Shown in pieces: positions 12,820 through 56,331 of a stretch of 64,000 nt of DNA. The DNA is taken from positions 124,001 to 188,000 of the forward strand of contig JAOACR010000003.1 in assembly GCA_026417735.1 (NCBI GenBank), written 5' to 3'. Within the stretch, counting starts at the first letter, position 1, and every line of letters starts with the position of its first letter. Source of the stretch: Kiritimatiellia bacterium (lineage in GTDB: Bacteria; Verrucomicrobiota; Kiritimatiellia; PWTM01). The notes beneath the pieces were generated by a model that had not been told where the DNA came from, did not search any database, and saw only the letters and a program-made list of their open reading frames with translations. Position numbers and translations under genes: made by a program.

Positions 12820-12826
12820 CAGCTGC

Positions 12827-12982
12827 GATCTTCAGGGCAAGGTGAGCGTCGCGGCGGCTGCCACGATGCAATTCCTGACCGGCGGTGAGAGCCCGCGAGT
12901 CCCCTGCAGGGGATTGATGTGGTCGTCTGGGACACGGCCCGGATATCCGCAGCCGACAGTAGAGTCTGGATGGGAGAAGATC
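12827..12982 (+). ncRNA. FMN riboswitch (RFN element)
   Basis: All conserved blocks of the RFN element are present in order: GATCTTCAGGGCAAGGTG at the 5' end, ATTCCTGACCGGCGGT, AGCCCGCGAG, a CCCCTGCAGGGG variable arm, GCCGACAGT, and GTCTGGATGGGAGAAGATC at the 3' end, the first and last blocks closing helix P1. It binds flavin mononucleotide and lies directly upstream of ribBA, so FMN is expected to repress the riboflavin operon. A stretch between the first two blocks carries an insertion compared with the shortest family members. Confidence 0.95.
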
Positions 12983-13000
12983 GCGACGGCGCCGCCGCGC

Positions 13001-18796: not shown

Positions 18797-19160
18797 TGGC
18801 CGGCTGGAGCGGACGGCCGCTCGCGCACCGTCGCAGGTGGTCGCGGGAGGAAAGTCCGGACTCCACAGGGCAGGACGTCCCGCTGAAAGGCGGGAGACCT
18901 TCTGCGAGATCGGAAGGGACGGATAGTGCCACAGAAAACAAACCGCCCCGCAGAGTGGCGGGGTAAGGGTGAAAAGGTGGTGTAAGAGACCACCGGCCCG
19001 GTTCAACGCCGGGTGCTGGGCAAACCCCGTCCGGAGCAAGGCCAAATAGGGAACTGGAGGCGGCCCGTCTCAAGCCCGAAAGGGCGCGGTTCCGGGTTGG
19101 CCGCTGAGATAAATGGCCGTCGAAACAGAATCCGGCTTACGGCTTCAGCCGGCCATCGGC
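18792..19160 (+). ncRNA. rnpB: RNase P RNA, bacterial type A
   Basis: The catalytic RNA that matures tRNA 5' ends. Universal blocks are present: GAGGAAAGTCCGGACTC near the 5' side, ACAGAAA in the middle, GGTAAGGGTGAAA, the AGCAAGGCCAAATAGGG block, and AGATAAATGGCC with ACAGAATCCGGCTTA at the 3' side. Helix P1 is exceptionally clear: GATGGCCGGCTG (18794-18805) pairs perfectly with CAGCCGGCCATC (19146-19157). The ends are set from this helix and are good to a few bases. Confidence 0.95.
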
Positions 19161-43351: not shown

Positions 43352-44155
43352 TTACTGGCGATTCCACCAGCCCCAGCCGTTCGGCGCGGCCACTGCCGCG
43401 TTGTACAGCGGGATCTCGGTCCCGGACGGTGCCCGCGCCCGCCAGTCCTGCGAGCGCGGATTTTTGAAAATACCGCCGGTTTTGCGCGCCGGCCCGATCG
43501 AAACGACCGCTCCCTCCGGCGTCCCAATGTTCCCGCGCCCCCGATGCCACGCACCCAGCCGATCCGTGGATTTGTGAAACGGCTGGATGTAGCCAGCGTT
43601 CAAAAATTCCGCCGGGTCCTCCTCAACCAACCACGGGCAGGGTGTTTCCTCCAAGCCAGAGCCCAGATCCACCCGCGCCCGGGACGGCATGCGAGACTGT
43701 TTCGCCCCCGCAAAAATCTCAAACATTGCATAATCGAAGTACCCGTTGCTGCCCGTCCCGCTGCGGAGGGGACCCGGTTGCAATCCCGGACAGCGGCTCA
43801 GCCGGCGGGCCGCATCTCGACCGCCAAGATAGTTCAACAGCGTACCGAGTTTGCCCTGGGGCCATTCCGAACTCACGGTCAGGCCGGGGGGAAGCAGCTC
43901 CTGCCCAATGAAGCACATTTCCCAATCGTTCGTCGACTGAGATCCGCGGCTCCACGCTGACGCCATCAGACCATTGTTGTCCGCCGCGAACGCCATCGCC
44001 GCCTTCAGGAGCCCCGACATGTTGTTGCGGCAGGCCGTTTCCCGCGCGCGGGCAATCGCCTGCCCGATCTGCGGAGAGATCAGCATCATCAGCACCCCGA
44101 TGATACCGATGACCGCGAGCAGCTCCACCAGCGTAAATCCGCCCCTGCGGTTCAT
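43352..44155 (-). CDS. Prepilin-like protein (type IV pilin N-terminal methylation site)
   Basis: A 267-residue protein whose N-terminus is a classical prepilin peptidase site: G6 before F7, Glu11 at +5, and a hydrophobic helix to about residue 30. The remainder is a globular pseudopilin-like domain of the type expanded in Verrucomicrobiota, Lentisphaerota and Planctomycetota, with W/G-rich segments. The gene starts 3 bases after the zinc-ribbon lipoprotein's stop, GGGAG being provided within that gene. Last gene of the methyltransferase-SAM hydrolase-pgi operon. Confidence 0.85.
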   Translation of the reverse strand: MNRRGGFTLVELLAVIGIIGVLMMLISPQIGQAIARARETACRNNMSGLLKAAMAFAADNNGLMASAWSRGSQSTNDWEMCFIGQELLPPGLTVSSEWPQGKLGTLLNYLGGRDAARRLSRCPGLQPGPLRSGTGSNGYFDYAMFEIFAGAKQSRMPSRARVDLGSGLEETPCPWLVEEDPAEFLNAGYIQPFHKSTDRLGAWHRGRGNIGTPEGAVVSIGPARKTGGIFKNPRSQDWRARAPSGTEIPLYNAAVAAPNGWGWWNRQ

Positions 44156-44158
44156 GGC

Positions 44159-49153: not shown

Positions 49154-49182
49154 TTGACGGTCCGCACATCGCTGTCTAGACT
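49154..49182 (+). promoter_or_regulatory. Candidate sigma70 promoter for the cobalamin-riboswitch transcript
   Basis: TTGACG (49154-49159), 17 bases, TAGACT (49177-49182): one of the strongest promoter matches in the window. Transcription would start near 49189, at the 5' edge of the aptamer. Confidence 0.6.
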
Positions 49183-49184
49183 TC

Positions 49185-49362
49185 GCCGCCGTTGAGGTGG
49201 CACAGCGCCCGAGCGAACGGAAGTCCGTGAAAATCGGACGCGGTCGCGCCGCTGTGACCGGATGCGAAATTCCACGTGCCACTGTCGGATGCGGTTCGCG
49301 AACACGCGGGCGGTTCGATGGGAAGGCGGAAGAGTAGGAAGCCGGAAGCCAGAAGACGAGCT
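49185..49362 (+). ncRNA. Cobalamin (B12) riboswitch
   Basis: Conserved blocks in order: GAGGTGGCACAGCG-like 5' strand, GGAAGTCCGTGAAAATCGGACG, the universal CGCCGCTGTGA core (about 49248-49258), GCCACTGTC, GGGAAGGCGG, and the B12 box AGCCAGAAGACG (49347-49358). Together these are diagnostic of the adenosylcobalamin riboswitch family. It lies about 130 bases upstream of a DUF4465 PEP-CTERM gene, so B12 is expected to repress that gene. Confidence 0.92.
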
Positions 49363-49443
49363 CGGGCGCAGCGGTTCCCGTCGCGCGGGATGTAGTGTGG
49401 AATCGTCGTGCCGGGCGGCATGACCGTGCCAGGCGACTGGTGC

Positions 49444-49490
49444 GTCGGCTCCCAGTGCGAGGGGAACGGCCTCACGCGAGAGGAGTCGAC
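49444..49490 (+). promoter_or_regulatory. Ribosome-site-sequestering hairpin downstream of the cobalamin riboswitch
   Basis: GTCGGCTCC (49444-49452) pairs with GGAGTCGAC (49482-49490) over nine base pairs (one G-T), with a GAGG/CCTC pairing inside the loop. The Shine-Dalgarno AGGAG (49481-49485) of the DUF4465 gene is in the 3' arm, so formation of the hairpin would block translation. Confidence 0.6.
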
Positions 49491-49493
49491 CGC

Positions 49494-50333
49494 ATGCATG
49501 CAGTTCGTCTTGCCGCTGGCACGATCGCGTTGGCAACACTCTGCCGGGCGGCGATCATCTCGGTGGACTTCGAAAGTTTCGGGCTGCCCCCCCACGCCGC
49601 GCTGCCTTACACGGGCGGGTTCACCGCCGGCGGCATTGCATTCGCAAATTCCTGGACAACCTGGGGCGCGTTCACGAGCTGGAACGGGTTCGCCATCTCG
49701 ACCGGAACGAACACCGTCACGCCCGGCTACCTGAACCAGTTTTCCGCGTGGTCGGGGGGTGGCGCGGAGGGTACCTCTCACTATCTGATCGGCTATGACG
49801 ATGGGTTTTCGCTCGGACCCGACATGGTGATGACCTTCGCGACGGATGTGCTGGTGCACGGCCTGTATCTCAACAACACCACCTACACCGGCCTGGCAAT
49901 CCGCGATGGGGACGACGGAGGGTTTGGTGCGGTGAAAAAGTTCGGCGGGCCGAGCGGCACCGATCCGGACTGGTACGTGCTCTATGTTGCCGCTTATGAC
50001 GCCTCTTCAACACTGATCGGCACCAACGAGTTCTATCTGGCGGACTACCGATTTTCGAATTCCACCAACGACTACGTGATCTCCACCTGGACCTGGATGG
50101 ACCTCACCGGCTTCGGCCCGACCGTGCGCAAGCTGGAGTTTACGTTGAACTCTTCCGATGTGGGGTTGTGGGGCATCAATACGCCTACGTACGTGGCGAT
50201 GGACCAGATCAAGTACACGGTGATCCCCGAGCCGGCAACGTTCGGACTGCTCGCGGTGGCGCTGACTGTCGCTGCGGTCTTCCGGCCATGTCGCGCGAAG
50301 GTGGCGGCGAATGCACCGGATGCGTCGCCGTGA
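49494..50333 (+). CDS. DUF4465 protein with PEP-CTERM sorting tail
   Basis: A 279-residue exported protein: signal peptide (about 1-20), a DUF4465 domain of about 200 residues (V-D-F-E-S-F near the start; then K-K-F-G-G-P-S-G-T-D-P-D-W-Y; F-Y-L-A-D-Y-R; S-S-D-V-G-L-W-G-I-N-T-P-T-Y-V-A-M-D) and a PEP-CTERM tail, P-E-P at 245-247 with a hydrophobic helix and R-P-C-R, followed by an unusual extra tail of about 13 residues. DUF4465 proteins are often controlled by B12 riboswitches in Bacteroidota, where some are surface B12-binding lipoproteins (recalled, not checked). RBS GAGAGGAG. Probable B12-capture protein at the cell surface. Confidence 0.88.
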   Translation: MHAVRLAAGTIALATLCRAAIISVDFESFGLPPHAALPYTGGFTAGGIAFANSWTTWGAFTSWNGFAISTGTNTVTPGYLNQFSAWSGGGAEGTSHYLIGYDDGFSLGPDMVMTFATDVLVHGLYLNNTTYTGLAIRDGDDGGFGAVKKFGGPSGTDPDWYVLYVAAYDASSTLIGTNEFYLADYRFSNSTNDYVISTWTWMDLTGFGPTVRKLEFTLNSSDVGLWGINTPTYVAMDQIKYTVIPEPATFGLLAVALTVAAVFRPCRAKVAANAPDASP

Positions 50334-51090
50334 TCGGCACGGTCGCGAAGGCCTCACGCTGCTCGAGGCACTCGTGGCCGCCGCGCTGTTTACGGCGCTG
50401 CTGGCGTTGGTGATCATCCCCGCCATCGCACAGACCCGGCGGTACGCGCTTCGGGCCGCCTGTGCCGCCAACCTGCGGCAGATGCACACCGCATGGATTC
50501 AGTACCTCGCAGATCATGGCGGCCGTTTTTTCCCCTTCCGGGAGGACCGGCCGGACGGCGTCCTCTGGTACTGGGGCTTCGAACCCGGCGGCGGAGGGCC
50601 GGAGGGGCAGCGACCACTGGACAAGAGCCGCGCACGACTGGCTCCTTATCTGCCGCACGGCGCCGTCGAGCTCTGCCCCACCCTTCCGATCCGTGCACCC
50701 TACTTCAAACGCAAGTTTATCGTCGCCAGTTATGGATATGGGATCAATGGATATCTCCTGGCCGACCTGCCCGGCACCCAACGCATGGGCGTATTCGTGC
50801 TGAATGACGTCCAGCGGCCCGGAGAAACGGTCGCGTGGGGCGACTGCATCCAGATCAACACCTGGCAGGCGCCGGCCTCCCCTGAGCGCCCGATGTTGGA
50901 AGAGTGGTACGTGCTCGACAGCCTGCCGCCGCCCCATACGCACTTCCGGCACGGCCGCCTGGCCAACCTGACGCTGGTGGACGGAAGTCTGCGCGCGTTC
51001 GAACCCGCTCAGCTGGATCCCCGCTGCGACGGACTGGCGGGTTACATCGACGAGCCGCGGTCGGACCGATGGTTCGCTACGCGAAAGTGA
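50311..51090 (+). CDS. Prepilin-like protein with H-X9-DG motif
   Basis: A 259-residue protein whose start overlaps the DUF4465 gene by 23 bases. The N-terminus has a prepilin peptidase site (G14 before L15, Glu19 at +5) and a hydrophobic helix (about 19-40). The globular part ends with R-H-G-R-L-A-N-L-T-L-V-D-G-S, the H-X9-DG pattern of the large DUF1559-type pseudopilin families of Planctomycetota and Verrucomicrobiota. Translation coupled to the riboswitch gene suggests it takes part in the same B12-responsive function. Confidence 0.8.
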   Translation: MHRMRRRDRHGREGLTLLEALVAAALFTALLALVIIPAIAQTRRYALRAACAANLRQMHTAWIQYLADHGGRFFPFREDRPDGVLWYWGFEPGGGGPEGQRPLDKSRARLAPYLPHGAVELCPTLPIRAPYFKRKFIVASYGYGINGYLLADLPGTQRMGVFVLNDVQRPGETVAWGDCIQINTWQAPASPERPMLEEWYVLDSLPPPHTHFRHGRLANLTLVDGSLRAFEPAQLDPRCDGLAGYIDEPRSDRWFATRK

Positions 51091-51151: not shown

Positions 51152-51227
<76 letters not shown>

Positions 51228-51849: not shown

Positions 51850-52524
51850 TCACTCTTGGCCCAGCTCAAATGCAATTTGAAGGTCGCGATGCGCTCCCGG
51901 GAACGCTTCGGGCAGTGGCGGCAGCTTCGTCACCGCGCGGAGCGCACGCTCCACCGATGCGTCGAGCGTGGCGTGACCGGAGAGGCGAACGGGCTCGGCG
52001 CGCAGGATCGAACCATCGCGCGCGACGCGGATCTGTGCGATCACGCGCAGCCCCGGGCCCGGTCGAAGGCCGCCAGGCTGGTCCCACGCGTCATAAAACA
52101 CCTTCCGCACCAGCGCCAGATACCAGTCGGGTGGCGATGCACTCCGCGCATCGCCGGCCGATGACGGGGCAAGCGGCCGGCTCGGGGCGAGCAGCCGCTT
52201 GAGTTCTTCCGCCGTCGGCGCCAGACGGGGAGATGTGGGCGCGGGGCGGGTGATCTTCACCCGGCTCACCTGCACCTTGGGGCGCGGAGCCGCTTCGGGA
52301 ATGTCCTCGCTTACTTTGGGCGGGGGTGCGGAGGGCGTCGGCGAGGCCGCCGGCGGGGCGGGCGTCACCAGCGCCACGTCCGGCACATTGTACACGGTGA
52401 TCGAGTCGAATCGCCGCGGCCGATAGAAACAACTGCGCACCATGCCGGACACCGCCACCATCAGGATCAACGCGGCATGCACCGCGGCGCTTCGCGCAAC
52501 GACGCGCCAGTCGGCCAACGCCAT
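51850..52524 (-). CDS. TonB-family energy-transducing protein
   Basis: A 224-residue protein with one N-terminal membrane helix (about 13-32), a Pro-rich spacer (about 55-110; P-A-P-P-A-A-S-P-T-P-S-A-P-P-P) and a C-terminal TonB/TolA-like domain (I-A-Q-I-R-V-A-R-D-G-S-I, V-E-R-A-L-R-A-V, L-P-P-L-P). The stop/start overlap with exbD (ATGA) shows it is the third gene of an exbB-exbD-tonB operon. The domain is close to TolA-type C-termini, so a Tol role is a second possibility. Confidence 0.85.
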   Translation of the reverse strand: MALADWRVVARSAAVHAALILMVAVSGMVRSCFYRPRRFDSITVYNVPDVALVTPAPPAASPTPSAPPPKVSEDIPEAAPRPKVQVSRVKITRPAPTSPRLAPTAEELKRLLAPSRPLAPSSAGDARSASPPDWYLALVRKVFYDAWDQPGGLRPGPGLRVIAQIRVARDGSILRAEPVRLSGHATLDASVERALRAVTKLPPLPEAFPGAHRDLQIAFELGQE

Positions 52525-52937
52525 CACCGCGATTCCTCCGCCCGGTGAACCAGAGCGAGCTTCGAGATCTTCGCCTGGTGCAGGACTCGCAGTACTTCGG
52601 CGACACGCCCGTAGGGCACGTTCTCATCCGCGCGAACCATCACCACCAGGTCCGGATCCGCGGCGCCGAGCTGTCGCATTTCCTCGGCGAGAACATCCAG
52701 CGTCACTGACCGCTGGTCCAGGTGGATCATGCCGTCCCGGCGGATCGTAATCGAGCGGGTATTCCGCTGGGGCAGGTCCTCCGCCTTGCCCCGCGGGAGG
52801 TTCACCGGAACACCCTGTTCGATCAGGGGAAACGTGATGATGAACGTGATCAACAACAAAAACGTGAGATCAATCAGCGGCGTGAGGTTGATTTCCTTGA
52901 TCTCACTCAGCGCGACGATGGTCGTGCGGCGCGGCAT
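52524..52937 (-). CDS. exbD: ExbD/TolR-family proton-channel subunit
   Basis: A 137-residue protein with one N-terminal membrane helix. The essential Asp is visible in L-I-D-L-T-F-L-L-L-I-T-F-I-I (about 20-34). The periplasmic domain follows with the usual beta pattern. It works with ExbB to harness proton flow for TonB. RBS GGAG 5 bases before ATG 52937; exbB ends two bases upstream. Confidence 0.92.
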   Translation of the reverse strand: MPRRTTIVALSEIKEINLTPLIDLTFLLLITFIITFPLIEQGVPVNLPRGKAEDLPQRNTRSITIRRDGMIHLDQRSVTLDVLAEEMRQLGAADPDLVVMVRADENVPYGRVAEVLRVLHQAKISKLALVHRAEESR

Positions 52938-52939
52938 GG

Positions 52940-53698
52940 TCACTCCCGGCTGAAGGCACGCTGGACCTCCGCGACGAACTCTTGGGAGAAGTTGTCCATC
53001 TGAACCGCGAGCGTGCGGATGTGGCCGGCAAGCACGTTGTACCCCACGGAGGACGGCAGCGCGACCAGCAGACCGACAACCGTCGTGAGCAGCGCGCCCG
53101 AGATGCCGGGCGCCACCGCGGAGAGATTGGCGGCTCCCCGGTGTGCCATCGCACCGAACGCGTCGAGCACCCCCCAAACCGTTCCCAGCAGCCCCAACAT
53201 CGGACTGGCACTCACCGCGATCATCAGCCAGCCCATCCCGCTCTCCAGCTGGAGCGCCTGATCCGCAACAGTGCGCTCGGTCACCCGCCGAACAACTTCA
53301 ATCTGTAGCGGTGACAGCATCGCTTGCCGCCTCGTGGCGCCTCCTGACGCGACCGCGCCCAGGGTGCGCATTTCGGACTCGCCAATCTCCACGCCGATCG
53401 CGACACACCCCGCCTGGTAGACCTGAAACACCGGACTGTCCCGAAAGGCTGCCGAGCGGTTCTGCAGAAAGATTGCCAGCGGATTCGATTCCTGCCGGAA
53501 CGCCGCAAGAAAGTCCTCCGAGGCCCGCCTCGCGCGCCGCAGATCGCGCCACTTTGAGTACATCACCGACCAGGCGCCGATCGAGGCGACTATGAGGACC
53601 AGGACAATGAGTTTGCCCGACAGCCAGTTGCTATCGATGAACGCCTGCCGAATGTCCGCCGTGACAGGTCGGACCAGCCACTCGCTCCACCACAACAT
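52940..53698 (-). CDS. exbB: ExbB/TolQ/MotA-family proton-channel protein
   Basis: A 252-residue protein with three membrane segments (about 30-48, 160-185 and 205-228). The MotA/TolQ/ExbB signature is seen in L-L-G-T-V-W-G-V-L-D-A-F, and the third helix holds the conserved small residues with Thr (G-A-L-L-T-T-V-V-G-L). Start ATG 53698 was preferred because GGGGAG lies six bases upstream; an ATG two codons earlier overlaps it. First gene of exbB-exbD-tonB, divergent from the PL11 lyase gene. Confidence 0.92.
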   Translation of the reverse strand: MLWWSEWLVRPVTADIRQAFIDSNWLSGKLIVLVLIVASIGAWSVMYSKWRDLRRARRASEDFLAAFRQESNPLAIFLQNRSAAFRDSPVFQVYQAGCVAIGVEIGESEMRTLGAVASGGATRRQAMLSPLQIEVVRRVTERTVADQALQLESGMGWLMIAVSASPMLGLLGTVWGVLDAFGAMAHRGAANLSAVAPGISGALLTTVVGLLVALPSSVGYNVLAGHIRTLAVQMDNFSQEFVAEVQRAFSRE

Positions 53699-53802
53699 CC
53701 GCATCTCCCCGTGGTCCGCCGCGCGCAGACCGAAGTTGCATGATACAGTAGCTGTGAGCGCCCCGCCACCGGGTGGGGCTGAGCCATCGCCAAGGAGAAC
53801 GA

Positions 53803-56331
53803 ATGAACAAGCGACGTTGCCGACGGCGTCTACTCCTCCGGCCATCGGGCGGCCGTTGGGTACTCACCGGACTGCTGCACATCGCGGGCGCCGCATCGAG
53901 TTCGTCCTCGGGGGAGCCCGGTTCCCTCACCACGCTCGTGTTTGAAGCCGAAACGGTGAGCAGCCCAACCACCGCATGGACCACCAATCGCTCGCGGCCC
54001 GATCGTTGGAACCTGTGGTCCACCGACAGCGACGCACAGCGCAAATGGTCCGGCGGTGTTGTGCTTCAGAGCCCGCCCGTTCGCAAAGACCGCGCATCCG
54101 CCGACGAGGGCGCACCTCCGCTGCATACGCGGATCGAGCACCTCCCGCCCGGTCGCTATGACGTGGTGCTGCGGCCGACCCGCCCGCTGGCGGTTTCCCT
54201 GGATGGCCGTGAGTGGCGGAAGACGACCGGCGGAGTTGTGTTTGATCGCCTTCCGGCGACCAACGGCGTGATCGAATTCTGGGTGGACGACCGTTTTGCG
54301 GATCCCGCAAACCCCGGCGCCGCCTATTACGATACGGTGACGCTGGTCCGCATGCCCGATCCACCCGCACCGGTCCGTGTGGAGGGATGGGCGCGACGGC
54401 GACCAATCGAGCCATTTGGACGTGGGCTGACCGCGGTTCGCACCGCGGAGGGGATCTATGTGAGCTGGCGTTTACTGGCCGCGGACCCCCCGGATCTCGA
54501 GTTTGAACTCGACCGTGGGGATGGTGGGGGGCCGTTTCGGCGCCTGACCCCACATCCAGTGCGGTGGACGACCGGTTGGCTCGACTCAACCGCACCGACC
54601 TCCCCCGTCCTCCAATATCGCCTCCGGGTCGCTGGCACCGACCGCGCGCTCGCGGAGATCACCGTCGCCCCGGACGCTCCGCACCACGTCGCCCTGTCCA
54701 TCCCGCTGCGTGCGACGAACGCGACCTTCCACCGGTGCGCGGTGGCGGATCTCGACGGCGATGGAACCTATGACTTTGTGGTGAAAATTCCGGCCCAAAG
54801 CATTGATCCCTATGAAAGCTACTGGAAACCTTCGCCGGGCACGTATTCCCTCGAAGCCTACCTCGCGAACGGCCGTCACCTGTGGAGCCATGACCTGGGA
54901 TGGTCGATCGAGCAGGGCATCTGGTATTCGCCGTTCGTCGCCTTCGACCTCGATGGCGACGGCCGCGCAGAAGTGGTCACAAAAGCCGGCGAAGGGGACC
55001 CGCGCGGGCCGGACGGCCGAGTCCGAAGCGGGCCGGAATGGCTGGTGGTGCTCGACGGACTTACCGGGCGAGAACGTGCCCGCGCGCCCTGGCCCGACCG
55101 TTCCGGATTCGGCGACGACCTTCGCGGTTACAACTACGCCAGCCGCAACCAGATAGCGATCGCATTTTTGGATGGCCGCACACCGTGCGTGCTCGCCTTG
55201 CGCGGCACCTACACTCTCATGAAGGCCGACGCGTACGATTTCGACGGACGCGGTCTCCGGCTGCTGTGGTCCTATCACAGCGACCATCACGGGCAGCGTT
55301 ACCGCGGCCAGGGCGGGCACTTCACCCGTGTCTTTGACCTCGACGACGACGGCCGTGACGAAGTCATTCTGGGCAGCGTTGCGCTCGATGACACCGGCGT
55401 CCCCCTGTGGTGCACCGGTCTGGGACATCCCGACGCGTTCTACCTCGGCGATTTATGGCCCTCCCGACCCGGTGCGGAGATTTTTTACGTCGTCGAAACC
55501 CGGCAGCCGCGGAACGGTCTGTGTATGGCCGACGCCCGCACCGGTCGAATCCTGTGGGGGCTGGACCGCCCCACGCGGCACGTTCATTCGATCGGGCTGG
55601 GAGCGGATGTCGACGCTCGCTGGCCCGGCGCGGAGGGATACGGCGCGGATTCGGTGGATCACAAGCCCACCGGCGATCGCTGGTTTTTTGCGGCCGATGG
55701 CACACTGATCGCGACCAACGTGAACCTCAACTTCGGCAAAGATCCTGTGTGGTGGGACGCGGACCTGCAGCGCGAACTGGTCGTCGGCCGAAGCGTCCAG
55801 GATCATGACGGCACCATGTACGCCGTCTCGTGGCAAGGGGAGGAAGTGATGATCGCGGACATCCTCGGTGATTGGCGAGAAGAAATCATTGTCAGCGAGC
55901 CGGGATGGCTGCGGGTGTACTCCACTTCAGTGCCCGCATTCGACCGCCGCCTGGCGCTCATGCTGAATCCGCTCTACCGGCTGGATGTCGCGATGGCCTC
56001 GATGGGCTACACGCTGGCTGCGGGTTTGCCGTTCGATCTCGAACGCCAGGCTCCGAACGTAAATCTGACGGTGACCGCGAAAGGAAACAGCGTCCGCATC
56101 GTCGTGTCGGCGCCGACCAATTCACCCCTTGTTGGCGAAGTGCACCTCGAACTGCCCGCCGGTCTGTCGGCGGCGCAATGCCGCTGGCCGGTGTCGGTGC
56201 CGGCGGGCGAACGCATCGTGCTGGTCACCGATATCGCCGGGCAAAGTAAAGGTGGCAGCGCCCGGGCGATCCTCGCGCGGCCTGGTCACGCGGAGATCGC
56301 AACCGTGGCCGCGATCCCGCCACGTCGATAG
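53803..56331 (+). CDS. Rhamnogalacturonan lyase, PL11 family
   Basis: An 842-residue exported polysaccharide lyase that cleaves rhamnogalacturonan-I. After a signal peptide comes a CBM-like beta region (about 45-190, A-E-T-V at its start), then the eight-bladed propeller typical of PL11, with repeated calcium-binding D-x-D-G-D-G blades (D-L-D-G-D-G-T-Y-D-F, D-L-D-G-D-G-R-A-E-V, D-L-D-D-D-G-R-D-E-V) and the signature K-P-S-P-G-T-Y-S-L-E-A-Y-L and G-I-W-Y-S-P-F. RBS AAGGAG five bases before ATG 53803. A C-terminal Ig-like module of about 70 residues follows the propeller. Confidence 0.9.
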   Translation: MNKRRCRRRLLLRPSGGRWVLTGLLHIAGAASSSSSGEPGSLTTLVFEAETVSSPTTAWTTNRSRPDRWNLWSTDSDAQRKWSGGVVLQSPPVRKDRASADEGAPPLHTRIEHLPPGRYDVVLRPTRPLAVSLDGREWRKTTGGVVFDRLPATNGVIEFWVDDRFADPANPGAAYYDTVTLVRMPDPPAPVRVEGWARRRPIEPFGRGLTAVRTAEGIYVSWRLLAADPPDLEFELDRGDGGGPFRRLTPHPVRWTTGWLDSTAPTSPVLQYRLRVAGTDRALAEITVAPDAPHHVALSIPLRATNATFHRCAVADLDGDGTYDFVVKIPAQSIDPYESYWKPSPGTYSLEAYLANGRHLWSHDLGWSIEQGIWYSPFVAFDLDGDGRAEVVTKAGEGDPRGPDGRVRSGPEWLVVLDGLTGRERARAPWPDRSGFGDDLRGYNYASRNQIAIAFLDGRTPCVLALRGTYTLMKADAYDFDGRGLRLLWSYHSDHHGQRYRGQGGHFTRVFDLDDDGRDEVILGSVALDDTGVPLWCTGLGHPDAFYLGDLWPSRPGAEIFYVVETRQPRNGLCMADARTGRILWGLDRPTRHVHSIGLGADVDARWPGAEGYGADSVDHKPTGDRWFFAADGTLIATNVNLNFGKDPVWWDADLQRELVVGRSVQDHDGTMYAVSWQGEEVMIADILGDWREEIIVSEPGWLRVYSTSVPAFDRRLALMLNPLYRLDVAMASMGYTLAAGLPFDLERQAPNVNLTVTAKGNSVRIVVSAPTNSPLVGEVHLELPAGLSAAQCRWPVSVPAGERIVLVTDIAGQSKGGSARAILARPGHAEIATVAAIPPRR

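Follow-up and report, generated by a model that had tools for sequence, protein, structure and literature searches.

Why should a cobalamin riboswitch stand before a gene for an exported DUF4465 protein and a prepilin-like gene, and what might these three parts do together? The question is raised by positions 49154–51090 of a 64,000-nucleotide stretch of DNA (the whole stretch is called the window) from a Kiritimatiellia bacterium (GenBank assembly GCA_026417735.1, contig JAOACR010000003.1). Here a sigma-70-like promoter, a cobalamin aptamer, the DUF4465 gene and the prepilin-like gene follow one another on the plus strand, the prepilin-like gene starting 23 bases before the DUF4465 gene ends (50311–50333), as a first-pass annotation of the window had described. 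We compared the host genome (G000; 3.09 Mb, completeness 96.8%) with the eight others of its GTDB family, giving nine loci, and with wider sets of genomes; G-numbers denote genomes and L-numbers the regions compared. Judged from these comparisons, riboswitch and prepilin form a fixed core across the Planctomycetes–Verrucomicrobia–Chlamydiae (PVC) bacteria, whereas different exported proteins can take the place between them. We think it rather likely, while leaving real room for doubt, that riboswitch, binder and prepilin-like partner make up a cobamide-capture operon.

Conservation of the riboswitch–prepilin linkage

The first-pass annotation had made its reading depend on conservation of riboswitch, DUF4465 gene and prepilin gene as a trio in relatives. 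The outcome clearly favoured conservation: riboswitch and prepilin were kept, together with a protein bearing a PEP-CTERM-like tail, in all nine family genomes. The DUF4465 gene was not fixed: it occurred in seven of the nine, each time with the riboswitch upstream and the prepilin downstream, while G006 and G007 retained riboswitch and prepilin around unrelated PEP-CTERM proteins. DUF4465 was therefore rejected as part of the fixed core, its place being taken by other exported families.

The same linkage was found on a wider scale. Among the best 26 genomes with a prepilin hit in a search of the class, 24 carried a cobalamin riboswitch on the same strand about 0.9–2.2 kb upstream (below the gathering score in one of them, G342), and the linked prepilin was the best-scoring paralogue in 24 of these 26. 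Regions downstream of cobalamin riboswitches held a prepilin on the same strand in 54 of 141 cases and on the opposite strand in none; 41 of these regions had been selected for DUF4465 or prepilin, and among the 100 that had not, 17 contained a same-strand prepilin. Within the phylum, a same-strand prepilin lay within about 3 kb of 24 of the 37 DUF4465 loci (22 downstream, two upstream). Beyond the class, named genomes were searched with the prepilin alignment alone, using two peptide patterns, which yielded 80 loci in Kiritimatiellae, several Verrucomicrobiota groups, Planctomycetota and Ca. Auribacterota, the closest matches being labelled Kiritimatiellae or Lentisphaerae. An upstream, same-strand RF00174 or adenosylcobalamin (RF01482) riboswitch was present in 44 of the 55 loci scanned with Rfam (14/20, 17/18 and 13/17), and none of the 55 had a cobalamin riboswitch downstream or on the opposite strand. 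The query family had been defined from riboswitch-linked genes; the searched loci were not picked by riboswitch. With one or two riboswitches per genome of several Mb, we estimate the chance of a cobalamin riboswitch within 4 kb at about one in a thousand. Of the first-pass reading, the prepilin as a conserved partner of the riboswitch is the best-supported part.

One might still suppose that only common ancestry keeps the three elements side by side, and that the prepilin is one of the general PVC background with no role connected with B12. Such a background exists, with dozens of prepilin-like candidates per PVC genome, and the window itself holds a second prepilin-like gene from it, a paralogue at 43355–44158 on the minus strand (A3 profile, E 2.5e-20) without a cobalamin riboswitch. 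Shared descent, however, accords poorly with a linkage that spans several phyla while the middle gene is replaced, with the same orientation in every linked case and with the top score of the linked paralogue in the class search, and we regard this explanation as very improbable.

The exported protein and its replacements

The Pfam search bore out the DUF4465 assignment, with 155 bits against PF14717 (cut-off 25) for the sole match in the host genome. A connection of DUF4465 with B12, correctly stated in the first-pass annotation, has now been published for the family, whose members are termed BtuJ (PMC12751083, PMC13398666). Eight divergent members, among them D5EK51 of Coraliomargarita akajimensis and a protein from Haloferula luteola, are reported to bind B12 (PMC13398666). 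The best solved relatives of the window protein were chains 9hmu, 9fct, 9qpm and 9i2l, and the closest, 9hmu, is D5EK51 crystallised with B12 (PMC13398666). The conserved B12 contacts are tyrosines of loop DE and of loop HI, the latter in an NTPAY motif (PMC13398666). Both tyrosines (NTTY and NTPTY) are present in the window protein in alignment with the solved chains, and the family's six further DUF4465 proteins have them too (7/7 in total). On these grounds we predict that the window protein is a cobamide binder.

The suggestion that PEP-CTERM sorting replaces the lipoprotein anchor in this lineage also gained support from the relatives. A tail composed of PEP, a hydrophobic stretch and arginine ends the exported protein in all nine family loci, and all nine genomes encode an exosortase (PF09721, 177 bits in G000), although the tail of the window protein alone is sub-threshold. 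As a separate observation, the D5EK51 chain (9hmu chain A) ends in VVPE, where a PEP-CTERM motif would start, so the Coraliomargarita protein may also be a PEP-CTERM/exosortase substrate; the main text of the paper describing it (PMC13398666) does not mention PEP-CTERM.

The interval between riboswitch and prepilin was occupied by DUF4465 alone, by DUF4465 together with a domain that ends in GFDLDAVG and is either fused to it or follows it, by propeller-like proteins with the GFDLDAVG domain (as in L114:6513-8393, L115:7266-9218 and L116:7749-9647, where the two are fused), by a "DDFS..W.YAG" family or by a "WNDG..AWG.RWDG" family. Apart from the DUF4465 fusions, searches of the replacement families against Pfam, NCBIfam and the PDB returned no named family, only weak propeller-like matches. 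The DDFS family had no sequence link to DUF4465; its predicted structure was of low confidence (predicted local distance difference test, pLDDT, 69.5), and a likeness to lectin-like beta sandwiches (best template modelling score to target 0.57) was discarded as too weak for use. From their place between riboswitch and prepilin, the propeller-like family and the three unnamed families are candidate cobamide binders; replacement proteins of this kind are encoded at L103:7956-9104, L110:4769-5629, L117:7425-8606 and L117:6511-7437.

Riboswitch and control of translation

In the Rfam search the aptamer matched RF00174 with 70.8 bits (gathering score 31.5; E 1.9e-15), and it was the only such match in the host genome. 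Outside the local Rfam match we found P1 as a perfect 10-bp helix (49205–49214/49360–49369), and the aptamer is therefore complete, as originally claimed. The promoter reported at its 5' end is there as sequence: TTGACG-17-TAGACT agrees with the consensus at 9 of 12 positions, and a 2.25-kb stretch contains two such sites vs. 0.3 in shuffles, a comparison which says nothing on activity. In several relatives, too, a TTGACN-TANNNT element lies no more than about 75 bases from the Rfam match.

In all nine family genomes a short hairpin, with CGCGA as the core of its loop, stands before the first gene 3' of the riboswitch, and in all nine loci the aptamer loop L5 carries the exact complement of this core, UCGCG. 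With arms defined by hand in these nine related sequences, all 36 stem pairs were standard, and at three of the four positions in the stem both partners of the pair varied. In the window, the Shine-Dalgarno sequence GAGGAG (49480–49485) lies eight bases upstream of the ATG at 49494; in G004, G005 and G007 a purine-rich stretch directly follows the hairpin, so the Shine-Dalgarno sequence there may adjoin the hairpin instead of forming part of it. Transcription termination was rejected as the switch because the window leader contained no terminator-like site. Whole-leader folding revealed no significant gain in stability (z −1.1), and the regulatory claim therefore rests on the comparison of relatives. 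For this argument we used the nine-member family only; a scripted scan for CGCGA-loop hairpins in distant loci proved too loose (29/94 linked loci vs. 17/89 other riboswitches) and was set aside. In the published mechanism, effector binding favours the L5–L13 kissing loop, P13 and a hairpin at the ribosome-binding site (PMC10653944). Given the L5–L13 complementarity, the Shine-Dalgarno hairpin and the lack of a terminator, this mechanism fits the window leader and cobalamin should lower translation; cobalamin thus probably blocks translation through the Shine-Dalgarno hairpin.

Elsewhere in the class, cobalamin riboswitches stand before genes for CobT and MetE, for a ribonucleotide reductase small chain, for a periplasmic binding protein and for TonB-dependent receptors, one of which had the B12 receptor model as its best match, and we consider the riboswitch calls within the class sound. 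The reductase case, L119 (G051), is an expected B12-independent substitute.

Role of the prepilin-like protein

Among PDB entries, a profile of the prepilin relatives matched type IV pilins and GspG across the N-terminal helix (7e-14). By eye, the window protein contains an H-X9-DG motif (HGRLANLTLVDG), with no TIGR04294 match reported; it falls under both curated cut-offs (TIGR02532 and TIGR04294), both of which are passed by a riboswitch-linked relative in G386. The subfamily has motifs of its own (LWYWG, QxNTWQxPA, PMLEEWY and HFRH). The prepilin model has a mean pLDDT of 93. Over the same five genomes, mean pairwise identity was 77% for the prepilin head vs. 62% for the DUF4465 domain.

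The matches to type IV pilins and GspG would suit an export or display device, that is, a cargo-specific pseudopilin which, in concert with type II secretion or type IV pilus machinery, moves or holds the PEP-CTERM protein at the surface and never touches cobamide. That the prepilin immediately follows exported proteins from unrelated families is likewise what one would expect of a device serving different cargoes. A head more conserved than its cargo speaks against this, as do the invariant aromatic motifs (LWYWG, EEWY, HFRH), which persist while the cargo family changes and would better fit a constant ligand or machine part. We therefore treat the display device as a tentative possibility, the less probable course of events.

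Alternatively, the prepilin head may be a membrane-anchored cobamide receptor that replaces BtuB or a BtuF-type protein and passes the ligand inside the envelope, with the exported binder as an accessory scavenger. The constancy of the prepilin as partner of cobalamin riboswitches across phyla is in keeping with this, and so is the density of invariant aromatic and polar residues in the head. The TonB-dependent receptors of the host point the same way. No recognisable BtuB was found in the host genome: none of its three TonB-dependent receptors with a Plug domain is best matched by TIGR01779, the B12 receptor model, their best models being heme, siderophore and Xanthomonas/Caulobacter-type. 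In G007 no Plug-domain match was detected, though the operon is kept; this draft, however, is only 89% complete. The head, moreover, lacks a fold match to known binders, and the host genome contains FecCD-type permeases. We judge the receptor role improbable. Among 112 genomes, a riboswitch-linked BtuB occurred in 38, a riboswitch-linked prepilin in 52 and both in two, an exclusivity which is suggestive only because most genomes gave a single region. The host itself probably uses cobamide, as it encodes, next to an AcsV-like activase, a corrinoid protein of the methyltransferase type. No full-length MetH was found in G000, only N-terminal-like and short corrinoid-domain matches, and in two relatives MetH appears to be split into two adjacent reading frames (G004:C157:407-3765 and G006:C231).

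Proposed mechanism

The identity of the parts, the architecture of the riboswitch and the conservation of the linkage can be read from the sequences directly. From them we infer the following sequence of events. At low cobamide the riboswitch would leave the Shine-Dalgarno sequence open, allowing binder and prepilin-like protein to be made. The exported BtuJ-type protein would bind cobamide outside the inner membrane and be sorted by exosortase through its PEP-CTERM tail. Its prepilin-like partner would be anchored through the N-terminal helix, the conserved head working with the binder and most likely, at the envelope, holding or receiving either the binder or its cobamide. In this way the ligand might be kept or passed toward an inner-membrane transporter. 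At high cobamide the ligand would favour the L5–L13 kissing loop, the hairpin would shut over the Shine-Dalgarno sequence, and translation of the binder and, by putative translational coupling, of the overlapping prepilin gene would fall. Across PVC bacteria, riboswitch and prepilin would remain constant as the binder is swapped.

Several results weigh against this scheme. The window prepilin reached 17.1 bits for N_methyl (cut-off 21.2), and its model had no fold match in the PDB at E<=0.001, so that the head offers no basis for naming a ligand or partner site. The PEP-CTERM tail of the window protein scored 16.7 in Pfam (cut-off 20.7) and 12.6 for TIGR02595 (cut-off 16). A prepilin was missing from the vicinity of 13 of the 37 DUF4465 loci in the phylum, and the wealth of paralogues in PVC genomes means that a prepilin beside an exported protein may not be B12-specific. 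The most economical reading appears to be that of a capture operon in which the prepilin-like partner, be it carrier, display device or receptor, deals with the binder or its ligand at the envelope. We consider doubtful the more far-reaching proposal of a pilin-based, BtuB-independent cobamide uptake in PVC bacteria, in which a riboswitch-controlled pseudopilin would serve throughout as receptor or carrier, with interchangeable front ends supplied by exported binders from at least five unrelated families that include DUF4465.

Layout of the locus and its surroundings

Table 1. Features of the cobalamin-riboswitch locus, in window coordinates
Feature	Position	Strand	Basis
Sigma-70-like promoter TTGACG-17-TAGACT just 5' of aptamer (predicted only)	49154..49182	+	Consensus scan
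Cobalamin riboswitch aptamer	49205..49369	+	RF00174 match 49219-49357; P1 complementarity; alignment with eight family relatives
L5 loop segment UCGCG, proposed kissing-loop partner	49244..49248	+	Exact complement of CGCGA at 49475-49479; 9/9 family loci
P13-like hairpin CCUC-ACGCGA-GAGG; 3' arm is the Shine-Dalgarno sequence	49470..49485	+	9/9 family loci
Predicted cobamide binder: exported DUF4465 (BtuJ-like) protein of 279 aa with signal peptide and PEP-CTERM-like tail	49494..50333	+	PF14717; PDB relatives
DUF4465 domain, aa 60-239, conserved tyrosines Y131 (NTTY) and Y233 (NTPTY)	49671..50210	+	
PEP-CTERM-like sorting tail, aa 244-264	50223..50285	+	Below cut-off alone; conserved in relatives; exosortase in genome
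Prepilin-like protein of 259 aa with predicted class III signal, long N-helix, conserved head rich in aromatics and, by eye, an H-X9-DG motif	50311..51090	+	Cobalamin-riboswitch link across PVC

Downstream by 0.76 kb, on the minus strand at 51850–53845, lie genes with ExbB/TolQ, ExbD/TolR and TonB domains (curated cut-offs do not separate TolQR from ExbBD), with a tRNA gene (51152–51224) and an isochorismatase-family gene between them and the prepilin-like gene. The first-pass annotation had drawn attention to this exbB-exbD-tonB operon, but among the 37 DUF4465 loci of the phylum it adjoins the trio only in G000 and the congener G003. We rejected it as part of the module; its proximity, kept in one congener only, is probably incidental. 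The window also contains an FMN (flavin mononucleotide) riboswitch (12824–12985, plus strand; RF00050, 81.2 bits), a bacterial class A RNase P RNA (18801–19155, plus strand; 214 bits) and a gene for a rhamnogalacturonan lyase family 11 protein (53773–56331, plus strand), which suggests pectin degradation.

Comparison with known systems

The riboswitch class, B12 binding by DUF4465 and surface capture in Bacteroidota are already known. As far as tested, the new elements are a subfamily of prepilins that accompanies cobalamin riboswitches across PVC bacteria, probable PEP-CTERM sorting of the binders and the exchange of binder families at one position. A literature search of incomplete coverage found no paper on cobalamin riboswitch and prepilin together, and the papers containing both PEP-CTERM and cobalamin concern, by title and abstract, other subjects. 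The PVC prepilins with big heads, a numerous group whose function has lacked an explanation, are hereby connected with one defined nutrient by way of an RNA sensor of known ligand, which makes prepilin function testable, and several unnamed exported families are nominated as cobamide binders by their place. Should the system indeed replace BtuB, it would be a second outer-envelope solution for B12 uptake.

With BtuJ1 and BtuJ2 of Bacteroides thetaiotaomicron and other DUF4465 proteins, the window protein shares the domain family, the B12-contact tyrosines and export, and in B. thetaiotaomicron control by a cobalamin riboswitch as well (PMC12751083, PMC13398666). It differs from BtuJ of that organism in having a PEP-CTERM-like tail in place of a lipid anchor and a prepilin-like partner in place of btuB, btuCD and btuG; unlike Btu uptake operons of the B. 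thetaiotaomicron type, the window operon has no TonB-dependent BtuB. Linkage to B12 transport genes is frequent among DUF4465 proteins without being universal, but neither within nor adjoining the window operon was btuB, btuC or btuF found. The propeller-GFDLDAVG fusions of L114–L116 recall the BtuG-BtuH fusion reported in B. thetaiotaomicron (PMC12751083) in layout, though no sequence link emerged. The translational riboswitches E. coli btuB and env8HyCbl likewise combine L5–L13 complementarity with a hairpin able to hide the ribosome-binding site (PMC10653944), but their L5 consensus is UCCCG, whereas UCGCG pairs with CGCGA of L13 here, and the gene regulated in the window encodes a DUF4465 binder instead of the btuB of the E. 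coli riboswitch. Finally, with the PVC prepilin-type H-X9-DG proteins (TIGR02532 with TIGR04294) the window prepilin appears to share the N-terminal prepilin signal and helix and the H-X9-DG motif; in contrast to them it misses both curated cut-offs, and its subfamily, tied to cobalamin riboswitches, is marked by separate motifs.
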